Below the pieces are notes generated by a model that searched no databases, was not told the origin of the DNA, and was given only the letters and a program-made list of their open reading frames with translations. DNA of 36,299 nt from Desulfobacterales bacterium. Its GTDB lineage: Bacteria > Desulfobacterota > Desulfobacteria > Desulfobacterales > JAFDCJ01. The translations under genes were made by a program, and so were the position numbers. Positions 1 to 28,867 of the stretch are shown here, one piece after another. Position 1 is the first letter of the stretch. Each line of letters opens with the position of its first letter. The stretch covers positions 1-36,299 of the forward strand of contig JASJCE010000020.1 in NCBI GenBank assembly GCA_030066155.1. The letters are read 5' to 3'.

Positions 1-120
1 ACAACAGATCCCGGATCATTAACCGATTTTCCGGCCTGGGCCAAAACAAGCGGCAATGAAATTGTAAAAACCCACCAGGAAGATAAGCTGATCAAGTTTT
101 ACATCAAACGTCTGGCCTGA
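1..120 (+). pseudogene. 3' part of a second tusA-like copy, cut by the window edge
   Basis: The first 39 codons, open from base 1 and ending in TGA, encode the C-terminal half of a TusA-family protein (TTDPGSLTDF ... IKRLA). The stretch is an inverted copy of the 3' end of the complete minus-strand tusA and I see no base difference over about 116 bp. The N-terminal part, with the CPxP cysteine motif, would lie outside the window. I therefore cannot tell whether this is an intact second gene facing the first, a broken copy, or a foldback assembly artefact. The sequence after the stop is also related to the other copy, but with several substitutions. Confidence 0.6.
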
Positions 121-123
121 TTA

Positions 124-190
124 ACAGCAGAGGGCAATGGGCAAAGCGCATAGGGCAAGTAGCAGAGGGCAGGGAGCACAGGGGAATGAG
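124..190 (+). repeat. Heptad array, GGGCAnA class (left arm)
   Basis: Degenerate 7-bp units (AGCAGAG, GGCAATG, GGCAAAG, CGCATAG, GGCAAGT and so on) run in one register directly after the stop of the left tusA copy. The array is the inverted counterpart of the array at 336-392. The stretch between them (191-335) is unique sequence holding a 10-bp palindrome, ACCACGTGGT, at 321-330 and no gene that I can support. Confidence 0.8.
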
Positions 191-335
191 CCCATCTGGC
201 GTTAGCATCGGGCAGGCATAATGCCGGCGGCTTTTTTAGCGGGGTTAAAAACCCGACTATTTCCCATTCTTTCGTGGAAATATACGAACTGATTTATGCC
301 CATCTGCTGATGCAATCTGCACCACGTGGTTTACA

Positions 336-392
336 CTCTGCCCCATGCCCTATGCTCTTTGCCCTATGCGCTTTGCCCTTTGCCCTCTGCTT
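336..392 (-). repeat. Heptad array, GGGCAnA class (right arm)
   Basis: Eight or so 7-bp units (TCTGCCC, CATGCCC, TATGCTC, TTTGCCC, TATGCGC and so on, read on plus) end 4 bp beyond the stop codon of tusA. It is an inverted match of 124-190. Aligned to its partner there are around nine substitutions and no indel, so the heptad register is kept. Confidence 0.8.
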
Positions 393-396
393 GTAA

Positions 397-639
397 TCAG
401 GCCAGACGCTTGATGTAAAACTTGATCAGCTTATCTTCCTGGTGGGTTTTTACAATTTCATTGCCGCTTGTTTTGGCCCAGGCCGGAAAATCGGTTAATG
501 ATCCGGGATCTGTTGTGTGTGCTTCTATGACTTCGCCCACTTCAACTTCCTTGATACCTTTGCTGATTTTTACAACCGGCATGGGACATGCCAGGCCTTT
601 TAAATCAAATACCTTCGCTACTTGAACATCATCACTCAT
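397..639 (-). CDS. tusA: TusA-family sulfur carrier protein
   Basis: An 80-residue protein of the TusA/SirA fold. The family carries sulfur as a persulfide on the cysteine of a CPxP motif; here it is in GLACPMPVVK near the N-terminus. In dissimilatory sulfur metabolism TusA-like proteins pass sulfur to or from DsrE/rhodanese partners, which fits the DsrE-like gene just upstream. The ORF track starts at 711, but the ATG at 639 is preceded by a good GGAGG (about 646-650), the protein then has normal family length, and the longer start would run into the upstream gene. The Shine-Dalgarno overlaps the stop of the DsrE-like gene, so the two are probably translationally coupled. A heptad array begins 4 bp after the stop. 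Confidence 0.9.
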   Translation of the reverse strand: MSDDVQVAKVFDLKGLACPMPVVKISKGIKEVEVGEVIEAHTTDPGSLTDFPAWAKTSGNEIVKTHQEDKLIKFYIKRLA

Positions 640-1424: not shown

Positions 1425-1916
1425 TTATGGCGTTGCCGTCTCCATGGACTCTTTAACGGCCTCCAGGGACGCTTTAAGGATGTCCAGATTCGTCAACATC
1501 GCCTGCCGTTGGTCGGGTTCCATCAGGGACAGTACCTGACGATGCAACCCTTTTAAAAAAGTATTTATTTCAGATAGCTTGTGTTGTCCGGCAGGTGTCA
1601 GGCTGAGCAAACTCACCCGGGAATCCTCAGGATCTTTAATGCGTTGAATCAGATCTTTGCGAATCAGACCTTCGATGATCTTCGATACCCGGCTTTTGAC
1701 GACGTTCATTTTGATGGCTATTCCCTTTGCCGTCAGATAGCGTTCCTCTCCAAAAAGGCTTAAACATCGGAGCTCGGCATCCGGCAGTTGAAACCGTTCG
1801 CATTGAAGCTGCACCCGCTCCTGGCAGCATTGAAACAATTTCGTAATCAGCTCTTGAAATTGTACCAATTGATATTCGGTAACCTCGGAACTATATATCG
1901 GTTCAAAATCGTTCAT
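1425..1916 (-). CDS. MarR-family transcriptional regulator
   Basis: A 163-residue winged-helix repressor of the MarR type. The recognition region reads LTAKGIAIKMNVVKSRVSKI (around residues 62-81), followed by the wing signature DPEDSRVSLLSLTPAG. Helices at both ends would form the dimer interface. MarR proteins often sense small phenolic or oxidized molecules and repress neighbouring genes. The nearest target is the co-oriented DsrE-like/tusA pair 223 bp downstream, or the gene itself. There is no Shine-Dalgarno before the ATG, and a TTGACA/TATAGT promoter ends only a few bases before it, so the transcript may be leaderless. Ligand unknown. Confidence 0.9.
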   Translation of the reverse strand: MNDFEPIYSSEVTEYQLVQFQELITKLFQCCQERVQLQCERFQLPDAELRCLSLFGEERYLTAKGIAIKMNVVKSRVSKIIEGLIRKDLIQRIKDPEDSRVSLLSLTPAGQHKLSEINTFLKGLHRQVLSLMEPDQRQAMLTNLDILKASLEAVKESMETATP

Positions 1917-1951: not shown

Positions 1952-2053
1952 GTTCATATTCCTATTTTTTACTTCGACACCTGATTCAGAATCCATTGAC
2001 ATGCACGCGTCCGCTGGCTGCGAGCGTTCAGTCTGATTGGAAAGGAAACTGAT

Positions 2054-2300
2054 GAACGTCCAACATCGAACGTCCAACGCCCAACGTCGAATAATGTATT
2101 TTATCAATTTAAAATGAACAACGTGCGGCGCCAGGGTTGTTCCAGCGAAATTACCTTTGAGAATTCGGTCCGACTGCCATTTAATAAGCTCGGGCGCAGG
2201 CACCTCAGAGGCATTAATGGACTCATAAATTAAAATCGATAAAGCGCAGCGTCCTCCACATTGGACGTTCGATGTTGGACGTTGGACGTTCGACGTTCAA
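2054..2300 (+). repeat. Composite dispersed element copy 1 (heptad arms around a core)
   Basis: The left arm (2054-2091) consists of GAACGTC/CAACATC-type heptads and the right arm (2257-2300) of their inverted counterpart (TTGGACG, TTCGATG and so on). The core between them is related at both ends to the element at 8905-9169: both contain TATTTTATCAATTT(T)AAAATGA and GGCGCC next to the left arm, and CGCGTC/CAGCGTC plus TCCACATTGGACGTTCGATG at the right arm. The middle of the core differs. No ORF that looks real lies inside. It fills the 538-bp gap between marR and pal (1917-2454); the rest of that gap holds the two promoters and nothing else I can name. Confidence 0.75.
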
Positions 2301-2398
2301 TCTTTTTCCAATTTACGCTATACGAAGTTTCATAAAAAGTCGAAGACATTGAGCAGGGGCTGCATCATCCTCTAACCCTCGAAGCTTCCTATAAAAAT

Positions 2399-2454: not shown

Positions 2455-3009
2455 ATGGGCAAAAAGCTTCAATTTGTGATCATTCTTTTCGCGTTAATTC
2501 CGCTTCTGTCATTGTTGCCGGCCTGTTCCAAAGAGAAATCACCGACTGTACCCACTGAATCCGCGGTGCAGGAAGAGGATTTAGAAGCACAGAAAGTTAG
2601 AGAGCAGTTGGAAAAGGAACAGCAGGAACGCGAAGCCAGAGATCGTGAATTCAGAGCGGAAAAAATTAAATTCATGTACGAGGACATCCATTTTGAAAAG
2701 GGAAGCTATGAGCTGATGCCGGCGGCGCAGCAATTGCTTATCCAAAAGGCTCAATGGCTGCAAAAAAATTCAAATGTCAGGGTTATCGTTGAAGGCCACT
2801 CGGACGAAAAGGGATCAAAAGAGTACAATTTTGCCCTCGGTGATCAGCGGGCCGGTGCTGCGAAATCATTTCTGATCGGTCAGGGCATCCAGTCATCGCG
2901 TCTAATAGCCGTCAGCTATGGAAATGAACAGCCGATCGACACCGGCCTTACGGAAGCTGCGAAGTCCAAAAACCGCCGGGTACATTTCGTGGTCGAGGAG
3001 TCGCATTAA
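2455..3009 (+). CDS. pal: Peptidoglycan-associated lipoprotein (Pal/OmpA-like)
   Basis: A 184-residue lipoprotein. A signal peptide ends in the lipobox LLPAC (Cys 24), followed by a charged, probably coiled-coil segment rich in E, Q and R (about 40-75) and then an OmpA-like peptidoglycan-binding domain. The domain motif is seen in VRVIVEGHSDEKGSKEYN and RRVHFV near the end. Pal anchors the outer membrane to the cell wall and belongs to the Tol-Pal system; no tol genes are in the window, so the orphan location is notable. GGGAGG precedes the ATG by 6 bp and a strong promoter lies just upstream. Its stop codon overlaps the stop of the convergent regulator gene by a few bases. Confidence 0.92.
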   Translation: MGKKLQFVIILFALIPLLSLLPACSKEKSPTVPTESAVQEEDLEAQKVREQLEKEQQEREARDREFRAEKIKFMYEDIHFEKGSYELMPAAQQLLIQKAQWLQKNSNVRVIVEGHSDEKGSKEYNFALGDQRAGAAKSFLIGQGIQSSRLIAVSYGNEQPIDTGLTEAAKSKNRRVHFVVEESH

Positions 3010-5572: not shown

Positions 5573-7936
5573 TTGAAGAAAAAACTCAAAATAGCCGTAC
5601 GCGATCTGGTTGCATACGTCCTGCGCTCCGGAGACCTGGCGTTTGAGTTTTCGTCTGCTGCCCGACCACTGGACGCGATCCGCATTCATCGGAAAATTCA
5701 ACAATCTCGACCGCCAAGTTATCAATCGGAAATTCCCGTATCCCATCAGATTGAGACGGAATTGCTGACCTTGATCATTGGCGGTCGCATTGATGGGATA
5801 TATCCGGATTCCGACCCGGTGTTGATTGAAGAAATTAAGACCTCGTCCCTCAGCCTTGATCACCATAAACGCAACGAAAATCCAGTTCATTGGGGACAGG
5901 TTAAATGCTATGCATACATATTTGCCAACTCCCACGGTCTTGATAAAGTCGACACCTGCCTGACCTACTATCAGGTGGACTCGAACGAAACCATTCGTTT
6001 TCACAAACACCACACGGCCGAGGAATTGTGCGTATTTTTTGATGACCTCGTATCCAGATATATCGAATGGGCCGAGACCATTGTGAAGTGGCACACCCTG
6101 CGGGACCATGCCATCCGCGATATAGAATTTCCTTTTGCCGCATATCGACGGGGCCAGCGCGAGATGGCAGTCAACGTTTACCGTGCCATAAAAGATGAAC
6201 GACAGCTGCTAATTCAGGCCGCCACCGGCATCGGTAAAACCATGGCGGCTGTTTTCCCTGCGGTGAAGGCCATCGCTGAAGGCATCTGCTCCAAAATTTT
6301 TTATCTGACGGCTCGTACCACCGGCCGCATCGCTACGGAAAAAGCACTGGATCATCTACGGCGGGATAAACTGAAATTGAAGTCACTGACGATTACCGCC
6401 AAAGATAAAATCTGCTTTAATCCGGATGCCGCCTGCAATCCGGAAGAATGCGAATTTGCCCGCGGTCACTTTGACCGGATCAACGCTGCCGTGAAGGACA
6501 TATTCCGCCGGGATGCTTTTACCCGCGTGGCCGTCGAAGAAGTTGCCACCGCTTACCGCATTTGCCCCTTTGAATTTTCCCTTGAATTGTCCCTGTGGGC
6601 AGATGTCATTATCTGCGACTATAATTACGCCTTCGACCCGAGAGTATTTTTACGCCGATTTTTCCTGGAAGAAGATGGTGATTACACGTTTCTCGTCGAT
6701 GAAGCCCACAATCTGGTAGACCGCTCTCGGGAAATGTTTTCGGCCGAAATCTTCAAGCAACCGATACTGGATGTGCGCCGGGCCATTCACCGCAAGTTGC
6801 CTCAAATTTACAAAAGCCTTGGAGAAATAAACGCCTGGATGGTCAGGGCCAGAAAAAAATGTGAAGAATTCGGCGCAGAACGGCACGAAAACGTGCCGCC
6901 GGAAGACCTAATCCCATTGTTACGCGCATTTTTAATAACCACCGAAAATTGGCTGTCCCGCAATATCAAAACGCCCTTCAGAGAAGCGCTGCTGGACCTT
7001 TATTTTCAGATAGCGGGGTTTGTGCGGGTGGCGGAACAATTCGACGATAGTTATGCGACCTGTTTTGCACAACATAAAACAGATCTAAAGGTCAAGCTGT
7101 TTTGTATCGATCCGTCCATCCAGTTGAACACTGCTTTAAAACGCTGCAAAGCGGCGGTTTTTTTTTCAGCCACCATGACCCCCATGGCCTATTTCCAGAA
7201 AATCCTGGGTTGCGATGCAGATGCGGCAACTTTGGAGCTGGCCTCACCTTTTCCGACCGAAAATCTGCGACTGCTGATTTCCGACGGTATTTCGACTTTG
7301 TATCGCCAACGGGAACTGACCAAGCATCAAATCGCCGGCACGATTCGCACCCTGGTCGAACAAAAAAAAGGCAATTACCTGGTTTTCTTTCCTTCCTATG
7401 CCTACATGCAGATGGTTTACGACAGTTACCGTCCCAATGTTGCGGAAAGCGAGCTTATTTGCCAGACGCCGTTTATGACAGAAAATGAACGGCTTGATTT
7501 TTTGGCATTGTTCAAGCAGGACAATCCCCGATCACTGGTAGGCTTTGCGGTAATGGGCGGTATATTCGGGGAAGGGATTGATCTGGTGGGTGAGCGATTG
7601 TCGGGTGCAATAATCGTCGGTGTCGGACTTCCCGGAGTTTCACTGGAGCGGGATTTAATACGGGACTATTTTTCTGAAACCATCAATGCCGGATACGAAT
7701 TTGCCTACCAGTATCCGGGCATCAACCGGGTGCTTCAGGCAGCCGGCCGCGTGATCCGCAGCGAACACGACCGCGGCGTGGTTTTATTAATTGACCGGCG
7801 ATATGCAACAGGCCGCTACCGCTCGCTGTTGCTGCGGCAATGGACAACCGTCACGGTGCGCCACAATCGCCAACTGGTTGAGGAATTGGCGGACTTCTGG
7901 GGGCAAAGGGCAGAGGGCAAAGAGCAAAAGGCATAG
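5573..7936 (+). CDS. XPD/DinG-like DNA helicase with N-terminal RecB-type nuclease domain
   Basis: A 787-residue protein. An N-terminal PD-(D/E)XK domain shows Asp 74 in GGRIDG, EIK at 87-89 and a QxxxY motif at 109-113 (GQVKCYAY), the layout of RecB/Cas4-type nucleases. A superfamily 2 helicase follows: Walker A ATGIGKT near 215-223, four cysteines typical of an XPD/DinG 4Fe-4S cluster (about 280-330), DEAH near 375, and motif VI QAAGRVIR near 722. It probably unwinds and cuts damaged or branched DNA 5'-3'; its cellular role is not known. The start is TTG with only a weak Shine-Dalgarno; the nearby ATG at 5565 is out of frame. The last codons (GQRAEGKEQKA) and the stop lie inside a heptad repeat array, so the tail is repeat-derived. 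Confidence 0.88.
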   Translation: MKKKLKIAVRDLVAYVLRSGDLAFEFSSAARPLDAIRIHRKIQQSRPPSYQSEIPVSHQIETELLTLIIGGRIDGIYPDSDPVLIEEIKTSSLSLDHHKRNENPVHWGQVKCYAYIFANSHGLDKVDTCLTYYQVDSNETIRFHKHHTAEELCVFFDDLVSRYIEWAETIVKWHTLRDHAIRDIEFPFAAYRRGQREMAVNVYRAIKDERQLLIQAATGIGKTMAAVFPAVKAIAEGICSKIFYLTARTTGRIATEKALDHLRRDKLKLKSLTITAKDKICFNPDAACNPEECEFARGHFDRINAAVKDIFRRDAFTRVAVEEVATAYRICPFEFSLELSLWADVIICDYNYAFDPRVFLRRFFLEEDGDYTFLVDEAHNLVDRSREMFSAEIFKQPILDVRRAIHRKLPQIYKSLGEINAWMVRARKKCEEFGAERHENVPPEDLIPLLRAFLITTENWLSRNIKTPFREALLDLYFQIAGFVRVAEQFDDSYATCFAQHKTDLKVKLFCIDPSIQLNTALKRCKAAVFFSATMTPMAYFQKILGCDADAATLELASPFPTENLRLLISDGISTLYRQRELTKHQIAGTIRTLVEQKKGNYLVFFPSYAYMQMVYDSYRPNVAESELICQTPFMTENERLDFLALFKQDNPRSLVGFAVMGGIFGEGIDLVGERLSGAIIVGVGLPGVSLERDLIRDYFSETINAGYEFAYQYPGINRVLQAAGRVIRSEHDRGVVLLIDRRYATGRYRSLLLRQWTTVTVRHNRQLVEELADFWGQRAEGKEQKA

Positions 7937-7970
7937 GGCAGAGGGCAGAGAGCAGAGGGCCTAAGGCAGT
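7910..7970 (+). repeat. Heptad array, GGGCAnA class, overlapping the helicase 3' end
   Basis: Units GGGCAAA, GGGCAGA, GGGCAAA, GAGCAAA, AGGCATA, GGGCAGA and others run in a single 7-bp register. The helicase stop codon (7934-7936) is inside one unit. It is the same class as the arrays beside tusA and at 9269-9318. Confidence 0.8.
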
Positions 7971-8372: not shown

Positions 8373-8894
8373 GTGAAACTAAATATTCTGTCAATAGTTT
8401 TCCTCACCACTGCAATCGGTGTTTCTTCGCCCCACGCCCAGCAGATTTATACCTGGACGGACGAAAATGGCGTCATGCACATGTCCGATCAGGCACCGCC
8501 GCAGGGCGTTGAGGTCGACGACGTTCTGAAGTATTCGGAAAAAACACCGCAGGAACAACAAGCGATTGAACAGAAAATTGAGCAGCAACGCCAGCGCCTT
8601 GATCGCCAGAACCGAATCGACGCTGCTCAACGTGCCGAGCTGGAAGCCCGCAGAGCTGAAGAGAAGGCGCGCCAGGCAAGGGCTAAAGCCGAAGAAGAAT
8701 TGCGTACCAACCAGGAATACGTCAGGCAGCTGAGCACCAGACGATGGAAGCGGCGAAAGTTCAAAAAACGGATTGAACGGATCAAAATTGAAACCGAAGC
8801 CTCTCTGGCCGAAGCCGAGGCGGTTGAACAGCAGGCTGCGGAGGCTGCCCGAGAAGCCCGCCAGGCCGCAGCCGCAGCCGGGGAAACGCAGTAG
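8373..8894 (+). CDS. DUF4124-domain secreted protein with coiled coil
   Basis: A 173-residue exported protein. The signal peptide probably ends after SSPHAQ, giving a mature start at QQIYTW. A DUF4124-like domain follows (IYTWTDENGVMHMSDQAPP), known from many periplasmic proteins of unknown role. The remainder (about residues 58-170) is a long Q-, E-, A- and R-rich segment that is almost certainly a coiled coil, interrupted by a basic patch (RRWKRRKFKKRIER). The start is GTG, fixed by GGAGG 7 bp upstream. A perfect sigma70 promoter drives it. The composite repeat element begins about 10 bp after the stop. No function can be assigned; a structural role in the periplasm is a guess. Confidence 0.82.
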   Translation: MKLNILSIVFLTTAIGVSSPHAQQIYTWTDENGVMHMSDQAPPQGVEVDDVLKYSEKTPQEQQAIEQKIEQQRQRLDRQNRIDAAQRAELEARRAEEKARQARAKAEEELRTNQEYVRQLSTRRWKRRKFKKRIERIKIETEASLAEAEAVEQQAAEAAREARQAAAAAGETQ

Positions 8895-8904
8895 GACTGC
8901 AGCC

Positions 8905-9169
8905 CGAACGTCCAACGTCCAACGTTCAACATCGAACGTCCAATGTGGATGACGCGATGCTTTAAAAGTTATATCTTAGTATGGATCATAGCCTGTGAAT
9001 TGCTCCCTCCGACAGGCTTAGCACTGAGCTTTTCGAACGGCGGGCTGATTAATTTCACAAGAATATATTCGTTGGAGCAAAATAGGCGCCTTATGTAATT
9101 CATTTTAAAATTGATAAAATACCATATTCGAAGTTGGACGTTGAACGTTCGATGTTGGACGTTGGGTTG
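8905..9169 (-). repeat. Composite dispersed element copy 2 (inverted relative to copy 1)
   Basis: Heptad arms at 8905-8946 (GAACGTC/CAACGTC units) and 9127-9169 (TTGGACG/TTGAACG units) enclose a core whose two ends match the element at 2054-2300 on the opposite strand. The middle of this core carries an extra imperfect palindrome (CGACAGGCTTAG ... CTGAGCTTTTCG, about 9010-9035), resembling REP-type sequences found in many genomes; copy 1 lacks it. The element lies between the DUF4124 gene and the prenyltransferase gene. Confidence 0.75.
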
Positions 9170-9268
9170 TTTCTTTTTTGATCGAATTGGCTGCCTCCGG
9201 CGGCCAGCGGCGGGGCTGACACCTGATATTGTCCGATTTTGGTCCGGTTGCCTTCAACATACCAAACT

Positions 9269-9318
9269 CCATGCGCTCTGCTCTCTGCACCATGCCCTCC
9301 GCGCTCTGCGTATCGCTT
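9269..9318 (-). repeat. Heptad array, GGGCAnA class (complement strand)
   Basis: Units such as CCATGCG, CTCTGCT, CTCTGCA, CCATGCC, CTCCGCG and CTCTGCG run in one register. On the complement they resemble the arrays at 124-190 and 7910-7970. The array lies between composite element copy 2 and the prenyltransferase start; otherwise 9170-9425 shows nothing I can name. Confidence 0.7.
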
Positions 9319-16085: not shown

Positions 16086-16091
16086 GAAATG

Positions 16092-16189
16092 TAGAATGAA
16101 AATTGAATAATGAATAATTAAGGTATGTTGTCTATTTATAAGATAGAATTCCACAATTATTCAATCTTCAATATTCAATAGTCATTTGT
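16092..16189. repeat. Heptad inverted repeat, ATTGAAT class
   Basis: Left units (ATTGAAT, AATGAAT, AATTAAG; about 16092-16123) and right units (AATTATT, CAATCTT, CAATATT, CAATAGT; about 16154-16189) are inverted copies around a 30-bp spacer. The element lies between the convergent rpmB and rel genes, where a two-way terminator would be expected, but lacks the usual GC-rich stem and T-run. Confidence 0.7.
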
Positions 16190-18421: not shown

Positions 18422-18449
18422 GACATCCATCATCCAGTATCCAGCATCC
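18422..18449 (+). repeat. Short heptad array, nATCCAn class
   Basis: Four units (GACATCC, ATCATCC, AGTATCC, AGCATCC) end 9 bp beyond the proS stop codon. They belong to the same class as the array at 24539-24587 at the nusB 3' end. There is no inverted partner. Confidence 0.55.
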
Positions 18450-18458
18450 GGCCAAAAG

Positions 18459-23659: not shown

Positions 23660-24295
23660 TTAATAAACGGCTCGCTCGCCCACAAACGGATTGGTCCGTT
23701 TTTCCGTTCCGATGGTCGTTGGATTGTTGTGACCCGGATACACAACAAGGTCCTCATTCAGCGTAAACAACTTCTGCTGAATACTATTCTTAAGCGTTTC
23801 AAAACTGCCCCCTGCAAAGTCCGTACGCCCGATAGATCCCGCAAACAATGTATCCCCGACAAACACTTCAGTATCGGTGTAGAGTGAAATCCCACCCGGA
23901 GTGTGTCCCGGCGTGTGCAGCACGGTCAGGGTGATGTCACCGAAATTCACCTGATCGCCGTCTTCAATCTCCCGATCCGGGGGCGGTGAATTTTCGGCTA
24001 CCATGCCCCAAGCCGCAGCACTACTGGCTAGCTGGCTGAGCATCGGCGTATCAAGGGCGTGGATTAAAATTGGGGCCCCGGTAGCCTCCTTGAGCTTCCG
24101 GTTCGCGCCCACATGATCAAAATGTCCATGGGTATTGATAATGAGTTTGGCGGTCAGGTTATTATCAACCAGGGTTGCAAGGATCCGATCCGGTTCATCA
24201 CCCGGGTCAATAACAGCAGCTTCGGCGGTGTTCTCACAACCCAGTACAAAACAGTTTGCCATAATCGGCCCTACGGCCAGTGTCTTAACGATCAC
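23660..24295 (-). CDS. MBL-fold hydrolase, glyoxalase II/YcbL type
   Basis: A 211-residue metallo-beta-lactamase-fold protein. The metal-binding signature THGHFDH is followed by the downstream histidines and aspartate in LHTPGHTPGG, VFVGDTLF and VVYPGHNN, a complete dinuclear site. The size without a C-terminal extension fits the YcbL-like group, which often hydrolyses thioesters such as lactoylglutathione; the true substrate is not evident. The track starts with TTG at 24310, but codons 2-3 of that frame are AAGGAG, a Shine-Dalgarno 6 bp before GTG at 24295, so I place the start there. A long heptad array lies immediately upstream, from 24313. Confidence 0.87.
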   Translation of the reverse strand: MIVKTLAVGPIMANCFVLGCENTAEAAVIDPGDEPDRILATLVDNNLTAKLIINTHGHFDHVGANRKLKEATGAPILIHALDTPMLSQLASSAAAWGMVAENSPPPDREIEDGDQVNFGDITLTVLHTPGHTPGGISLYTDTEVFVGDTLFAGSIGRTDFAGGSFETLKNSIQQKLFTLNEDLVVYPGHNNPTTIGTEKRTNPFVGERAVY

Positions 24296-24312
24296 AATAA
24301 TCTCCTTCAAAT

Positions 24313-24455
24313 TCAGATGTCAGATATCAGAAGACAGAAGACAGATGTCAGAAAACTGAAGACAGATGTCAGAAAACTGAGGACAGATGTCAGAAAACTG
24401 AAGACAGAAAACTGAAGACAGAGAATAGAAGGCGGATGTCGAGAAGCAGAAAACG
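24313..24455 (+). repeat. Long heptad array, CAGAnGA class, with 21-bp higher-order unit
   Basis: About 20 units (TCAGATG, TCAGATA, TCAGAAG, ACAGAAG, ACAGATG, TCAGAAA, ACTGAAG and so on). A 21-bp triplet of units (ACAGATG TCAGAAA ACTGAAG) recurs three times. The array sits just upstream of the Shine-Dalgarno of the MBL hydrolase. The same class recurs at 28786-28867. Confidence 0.85.
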
Positions 24456-24503
24456 AATGTGCCCTTTCAATTTTTAATGACGGAGCAAAGCGACATCTAC
24501 CAA

Positions 24504-24587
24504 ACTTCAATAATCAATTTTCAATCTTCAATTCCGGCCTATCCAGTATCAAGCATCCAGTATCCAGTATCAACTATCAGGTTTCTG
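24504..24587 (+). repeat. Heptad array running from TTCAA into ATCCA units over the nusB stop
   Basis: Twelve consecutive units in one register: ACTTCAA, TAATCAA, TTTTCAA, TCTTCAA, TTCCGGC, CTATCCA, GTATCAA, GCATCCA, GTATCCA, GTATCAA, CTATCAG, GTTTCTG. The stop codon of nusB (complement of 24577-24579) is inside the eleventh unit. Confidence 0.8.
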
Positions 24588-28785: not shown

Positions 28786-28867
28786 TCAGAAATCAGAGGA
28801 CAGACGACAGAGGACAGAATTCTGATCTCTGTCTTCTGTCGTCTGTCCTCTGTCTTCCGTCATCTGC
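28786..28867. repeat. Heptad hairpin, CAGAGGA class, between nrdR and ribD
   Basis: A left arm (CAGAGGA CAGACGA CAGAGGA CAGA) and a right arm (TCTGTCT TCTGTCG TCTGTCC TCTG) match over about 25 bp with a single mismatch and a loop of about 9 bp. It could form a strong hairpin. It is followed by a separate short palindromic module at 28879-28905 (CTCGAC-GT-GTCGAG). Confidence 0.8.

Follow-up and report, generated by a model that had tools for sequence, protein, structure and literature searches.

A high-copy family of intergenic elements with heptad-array arms in a Desulfobacterales genome

Two related segments and their surroundings

The window, i.e. the whole 36,299-nucleotide stretch of Desulfobacterales DNA that was analysed, carries two related segments in opposite orientation, A (2054-2298, plus strand) and B (8906-9164, minus strand), placed as the original prediction had them. 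Copy A lies between divergent ORFs, 1425-1916 (minus) and 2455-3009 (plus). The following features were distinguished:

2001-2053, plus strand: copy A, accessory left unit P, a palindrome-like remnant ending GGAAACTGAT, conserved left of many copies
2054-2092, plus strand: copy A, left arm, GAACGTC CAACATC GAACGTC CAACGCC CAACGTC plus GAAT, in the order of most of 56 copies
2093-2259, plus strand: copy A, core of 167 nt with conserved edges, left AATGTATTTTATCAATTT and right AAAATCGATAAAGCGCAGCGTCCTCCAC
2260-2298, plus strand: copy A, right arm, ATTG plus five inverted heptads
2326-2339, plus strand: copy A, right outer motif AGTTTCATAAAAAG, of the AGTTTCAYAYRAG type
8906-8944, minus strand: copy B, right arm of inverted heptads that starts 11 nt past the stop codon of ORF 8373-8894
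8945-9125, minus strand: copy B, core of 181 nt
9126-9164, minus strand: copy B, left arm, heptads
9165-9222, minus strand: copy B, accessory unit P with a heptad-like GTGTCAG start
7901-7969, 9269-9309, 16087-16187, 18424-18451, 24293-24579 and 28787-28866: heptad arrays of other families

The alignment of A and B runs through both arms and core, with a mean column identity of 79% when the flanks are included in the aligned stretch, and the core edges named beforehand, TATTTTATCAATTT(T)AAAATGA, GGCGCC and TCCACATTGGACGTTCGATG, were found in both. After removal of the arms the cores still align in 113 of 165 columns (68%), with a local score of 48, where the highest of 500 dinucleotide shuffles reached 30; the similarity is therefore no by-product of the heptads and, as had been claimed, goes beyond simple repeat expansion. 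In many copies the conserved unit reaches past the arms, to the P unit on the left and to AGTTTCAYAYRAG on the right.

Arrays of other heptad families (GGGCAGA, CAGAAGA, TATCCAG, TTGAATA), some of them in inverted pairs, are present as well, and the 36 kb hold about ten arrays. The element on the tusA side, to which the same architecture had been ascribed, is indeed built similarly, but it lies at the end of the contig and runs on into an almost exact inverted copy of the tusA 3' region. The contig starts with this inverted region (window positions 1-516), in which 1-120 and 397-516 match in all but one base, while the heptad arms adjoining the inverted tusA copies show 11 differences in the remaining 66 positions. 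Such a start may reflect a genuine tail-to-tail duplication or else a fold-back introduced by assembly where the contig ends.

Copy number, modular anatomy and distribution

Elements were counted by pattern searches in the host genome, a draft of 6.66 Mb in 543 contigs that is 87% complete. Copy A used as a query retrieved dozens of copies that are complete or almost complete. The right-edge pattern GCGTCATCCACATTGGACGTTCG matched 65 times and the left-edge pattern GTCGAATAATGTATTCTATC 81 times, with 0 matches for the reversed control of each, and a related anchor, GATTGAGCGAAGCGACTTCCACC, matched 37 times (control 0). Merged by position, the edge and anchor matches make up 128 distinct elements, a figure that describes the wider family including exchanged right arms, the A-type right edge being present in 65 of them. 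Hence the claim of two copies was wrong, there being at least 128, and these many copies support a non-autonomous dispersed unit.

The elements are scattered between genes, at unlinked sites. For 31 copies the ORF context was convergent in 10 cases, tandem in 19 and divergent in 2, as counted by a rough ORF-length rule that required ORFs on both sides and used neither a gene caller nor a genome background; the left neighbour of copy A was missed in this table. Most copies measure about 240-300 bp from arm to arm and lack coding capacity, and the indels separating them have lengths other than multiples of three. The left arm usually consists of five heptads whose order is fixed, GAACGTC CAACATC GAACGTC CAACGTC CAACGTC, followed by GAAT, and the inverted right arm reads ATTG GACGTTC GATGTTG GACGTTG GACGTTC GACGTTC; the heptads are position-specific across copies, with one order in most of the 56. 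Between the arms lies a core of 118-297 nt with AATGTATTCTATCGATTT as its left and AAAATCGATAAAGCGCAGCGTCATCCAC as its right edge and a middle that varies by subfamily. The 17 copies of one subfamily are 72-97% identical (mean 82%), the non-repetitive core included, and this core recurs at many unlinked loci.

Further palindromic parts accompany the unit. In some copies an extra palindrome, CCTCCGGCTCGTAGG..CCTACGCCTCGGAG, is inserted in AGC^GTCATCC. The palindrome-like P unit, AGTTTCATATAAGCGCC..GGCC..GGCCAGTCTGATC..GAAACT, also read as AGTTTCATATAAGCGCCGCC..GGCC..GGCCAGTCTGATC..GAAACT, was detected by loose patterns to the left of about 31-33 of the 53 copies having enough flank, and 34 of 56 copies have AGTTTCAYAYRAG at most 60 nt from the right arm. 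At one contig start (L029/L158, G000 C425) a solo form was seen, in which the P unit and the left arm run straight into the right outer flank, the junction lying at the palindrome GAACGTTC; core and right arm look as though they had been lost by a deletion across the hairpin.

Twenty loci having the left edge without the usual right edge were read. Many of them begin with the usual left half and a short core and continue into a different right heptad family: ATTCGTC/AATCTTC (family B), CTTCGACATTCTGCGG (family C) or AATCCGC/AAATCTA (family D). Reading of 30 anchor loci revealed that the combination of A-left and B-right is a well conserved second element type. Since left halves are joined to foreign right arms, the arms behave as exchangeable modules, and matching arms are common yet not obligatory. 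A further repeat, TGCCATGCATAATG..GGCATTGCGGGCAGGTC, abuts heptad arms directly at L126, L129, L130, L144 and L148 (G000 C275, C430, C442, C52 and C417) and seems to be an additional module.

The family extends through the order. Six of seven genomes of the same genus gave matches, mostly to both edges with the middle unmatched, and at 20 same-genus loci the shared edges enclose different middles. A degenerate edge pattern matched the Olavius sp. associated proteobacterium Delta 1 (G005), a species of the same genus, as well as MAGs labelled Desulfobacterales or Deltaproteobacteria; scanning the named genomes with an exact 25-mer gave no match. Other families of the order hold a compact form, e.g. 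AAAAAGAGATGAACGTCGAACATCCAACGTCCAACGTCGAATTTTGAATAAGGTATTCTACCAATTTATAAACTGGCAGAGCGAAGCGATTTCATC followed by the inverted arm. In one genome of another family (G029, 2.7 Mb) 11 inward-facing arm pairs of 110-287 bp were found, where random placement would give 0.026, and outward pairs numbered 0. The plasmid and GenBank phage collections gave no match. Nine viral contigs of IMG/VR (L262-L270) hold A-type heptad arms, mostly single and between genes, with short-loop inverted arm pairs in some (L269); the core anchor matched two more (L271, L272), and no viral contig combined the anchor with B heptads.

The genes flanking A, B and two further copies (C354, C256) were found together in the Olavius Delta 1 symbiont, and all four orthologous intergenic regions lack the element, although the family is present elsewhere in that genome. 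Absence at these sites fits gain in one lineage and loss in the other alike, and the intergenic DNA of the symbiont is too diverged to reveal a precise empty site or any duplication of the target. Inspection of the flanks by eye revealed no target-site duplication; AGTTTCAYAYRAG stands on both sides in places, but it is a conserved motif. At some of the element-free sites further short arrays, inverted in whole or in part, were noticed by eye. Both further copies and element-free orthologous sites, on whose absence the original prediction was to fall, were thus found, which favours it.

Candidate enzymes and the possibility of RNA structure or in-place origin

With inverted arms able to form hairpins, the elements resemble REPINs, which are inverted REP pairs and likewise miniature, non-coding, intergenic and present in many copies (PMC3116915). 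They might accordingly be moved by a Y1 transposase of the host (RAYT or TIRYT) via a single-stranded hairpin intermediate, and the host genome does have 10-12 matches to Y1_Tnp (PF01797). However, REPIN ends are short palindromic REPs tied to a specific RAYT (PMC3116915), a REP being a 20-40 bp palindrome with a GTAG or CGTC tag (PMC3733652), whereas the ends seen here are heptad arrays with no linked RAYT. A heptad arm is not a single REP. The P unit has a palindrome-like form and, in the loci read, sometimes reads GTAGTTTC. Eleven Y1 loci were examined, and the ORF was recovered, and the flanks were readable, in seven. Five of these seven are bordered on one side or on both by GGGGACGT/ACGTCCCC, which resemble the GGGGWSAS termini described for TIR-associated tyrosine transposases (PMC3733652), and element heptads occur near one of the seven. 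Y1 genes bracketed by this pair, with ends resembling those of TIRYTs, are L045, L046, L047, L048 and L233. No RAYT gene flanked by the repeat of the element was found among the seven. Moreover, 52 of 58 genomes of the order possess Y1 genes, with or without a detected element. Because the Y1 genes mostly possess termini of their own and occur in nearly all these genomes, we do not assign the element to the REPIN/RAYT class and regard mobilisation of this kind as unlikely. Nor was a linked transposase or an autonomous partner with the same ends found, either in the fetched loci or by arm spacing in G029, where arm pairs are never spaced widely enough to enclose a gene.

The segments had been described as a mobile or RNA-structured unit. 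The first half of this description, a non-autonomous dispersed element, is supported by the copies and the element-free sites, while the second is not. A selected structured RNA or bidirectional terminator would agree with a long intergenic hairpin flanked by A and T runs, with the position of some copies immediately after a stop codon or where genes converge, and with the T-run after the right arm, a terminator-like pattern having been found in copy A. Single sequences also fold far better than their shuffles (z of -5.7 and -5.2), but any long inverted repeat would fold so. The covariation expected of a conserved fold is absent: the RNAalifold covariation term is +0.31, and across copies of the whole element 3 pairs have changes in both partners, compared with 3.6 in shuffles. 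The two arms of a copy match each other no better than shuffled partners (23.16 against 23.30, p = 0.76), as is expected of inherited ends and unlike a maintained stem. The short core hairpin gave a borderline p = 0.047 for covariation in a set that was filtered after a first attempt with misaligned anchors. GCGNAGC is able to form a very stable DNA mini-hairpin. A scan against Rfam matched a tRNA only. Moreover, copy A stands between divergent ORFs, the sites are unconserved in the sister species and elements with mixed arms are unable to form the full stem, so a role as functional RNA or terminator appears quite improbable for the family, though individual copies may have been co-opted later as terminators.

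Polymerase slippage combined with inverted template switching, producing heptad arrays in place without any transposition, is very unlikely, because one non-repetitive core is repeated at many unlinked loci and the heptads are position-specific, unlike a fresh expansion, even though in many genomes no long simple repeats are commoner than heptads, with slippage proposed as their origin (PMC4679880, PMC4692102), other heptad families abound in the window and other short inverted arrays (by eye) occupy some element-free sister sites.

A MITE-like reading and its relation to known repeats

In our opinion the family rather probably consists of non-autonomous, MITE-like elements with heptad-array ends that are mobilised in trans by a putative enzyme. 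Like bacterial MITEs, the elements are short, non-coding and dispersed, and they are present or absent at orthologous sites; inverted terminal arms are found in A-type copies and in other families, along with the mixed-arm elements. Mobility is suggested by the dispersal and by the orthologous sites free of the element, and the mechanism outlined below is inferred. The MITE-like reading is favoured by the 17-copy subfamily, the at least 128 elements at unlinked sites, the four element-free sites out of four, the arm pairs facing only inwards in G029, the low number of copies between divergent ORFs (2 of 31) and the lack of co-evolution between the two arms of a copy. Counted against it are the lack of a visible target-site duplication and of a partner or linked transposase in our searches, and the arms of different heptad families within some elements, which are odd for transposon ends.

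On the MITE-like reading the long terminal inverted repeats would be arrays of about five degenerate heptads enclosing a core that keeps its two edges and has a replaceable middle. A putative trans-acting enzyme may recognise the arms, either as repeated binding sites or as the cruciform they form, and would move or copy the unit into intergenic DNA, often beside another repeat (AGTTTCAYAYRAG or the P unit). The mosaic of cores and arms could then result from recombination between heptad arrays and from the nested insertion of other palindromes. We also considered a more radical version, to which we give little credence: a modular system of a small conserved core (hairpin-like TTCTRTC..GAYAGAG plus the AGCGNAGCG motif) and interchangeable heptad arrays of several sequence families, in which a dedicated enzyme not yet described, and not slippage, would write or copy the heptads, and which would constitute a new class of prokaryotic mobile DNA.

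Differences from bacterial MITEs are the heptad-built ends, the exchangeable arms and the target duplication and parent transposon that were not found here. The GGGAATC heptamers of Xanthomonas are degenerate, mostly intergenic and scarcer between divergent ORFs, with convergent close array pairs in 70 and 75 cases in two species, and Nostoc has GGGGAYT repeats (PMC4692102). The arrays described here are similar in their degeneracy, intergenic location, convergent pairing and rarity between divergent ORFs. Nevertheless, the Xanthomonas heptads are rich in G and adopt quadruplex structures in vitro, and the section consulted describes no conserved core (PMC4692102), while our elements have a recurring one, and their heptads (GTTGGAC, GTTCGAT etc.) are devoid of the regular GGG tracts of the Xanthomonas-type quadruplex. 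The TAACTGA arrays of marine Beggiatoaceae are also numerous intergenic heptamers in an uncultured marine sulfur-cycle bacterium (PMC4679880). They are, however, mostly direct and located just upstream of start codons, with one inverted case and no core described (PMC4679880), in contrast to the inverted arms around a core observed here. In our incomplete coverage of the literature we met neither a description of elements that combine heptad arms with a conserved core nor one of any heptad-armed elements in Desulfobacterota.

Heptad repeats, the most frequent long simple repeats of several bacterial genomes, are usually attributed to slippage (PMC4679880). Their occurrence here as paired ends of a high-copy element makes their spread and their exchange between elements traceable and testable. 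If mobile, the family would be a source of intergenic change in an order of sulfate reducers that includes animal symbionts.
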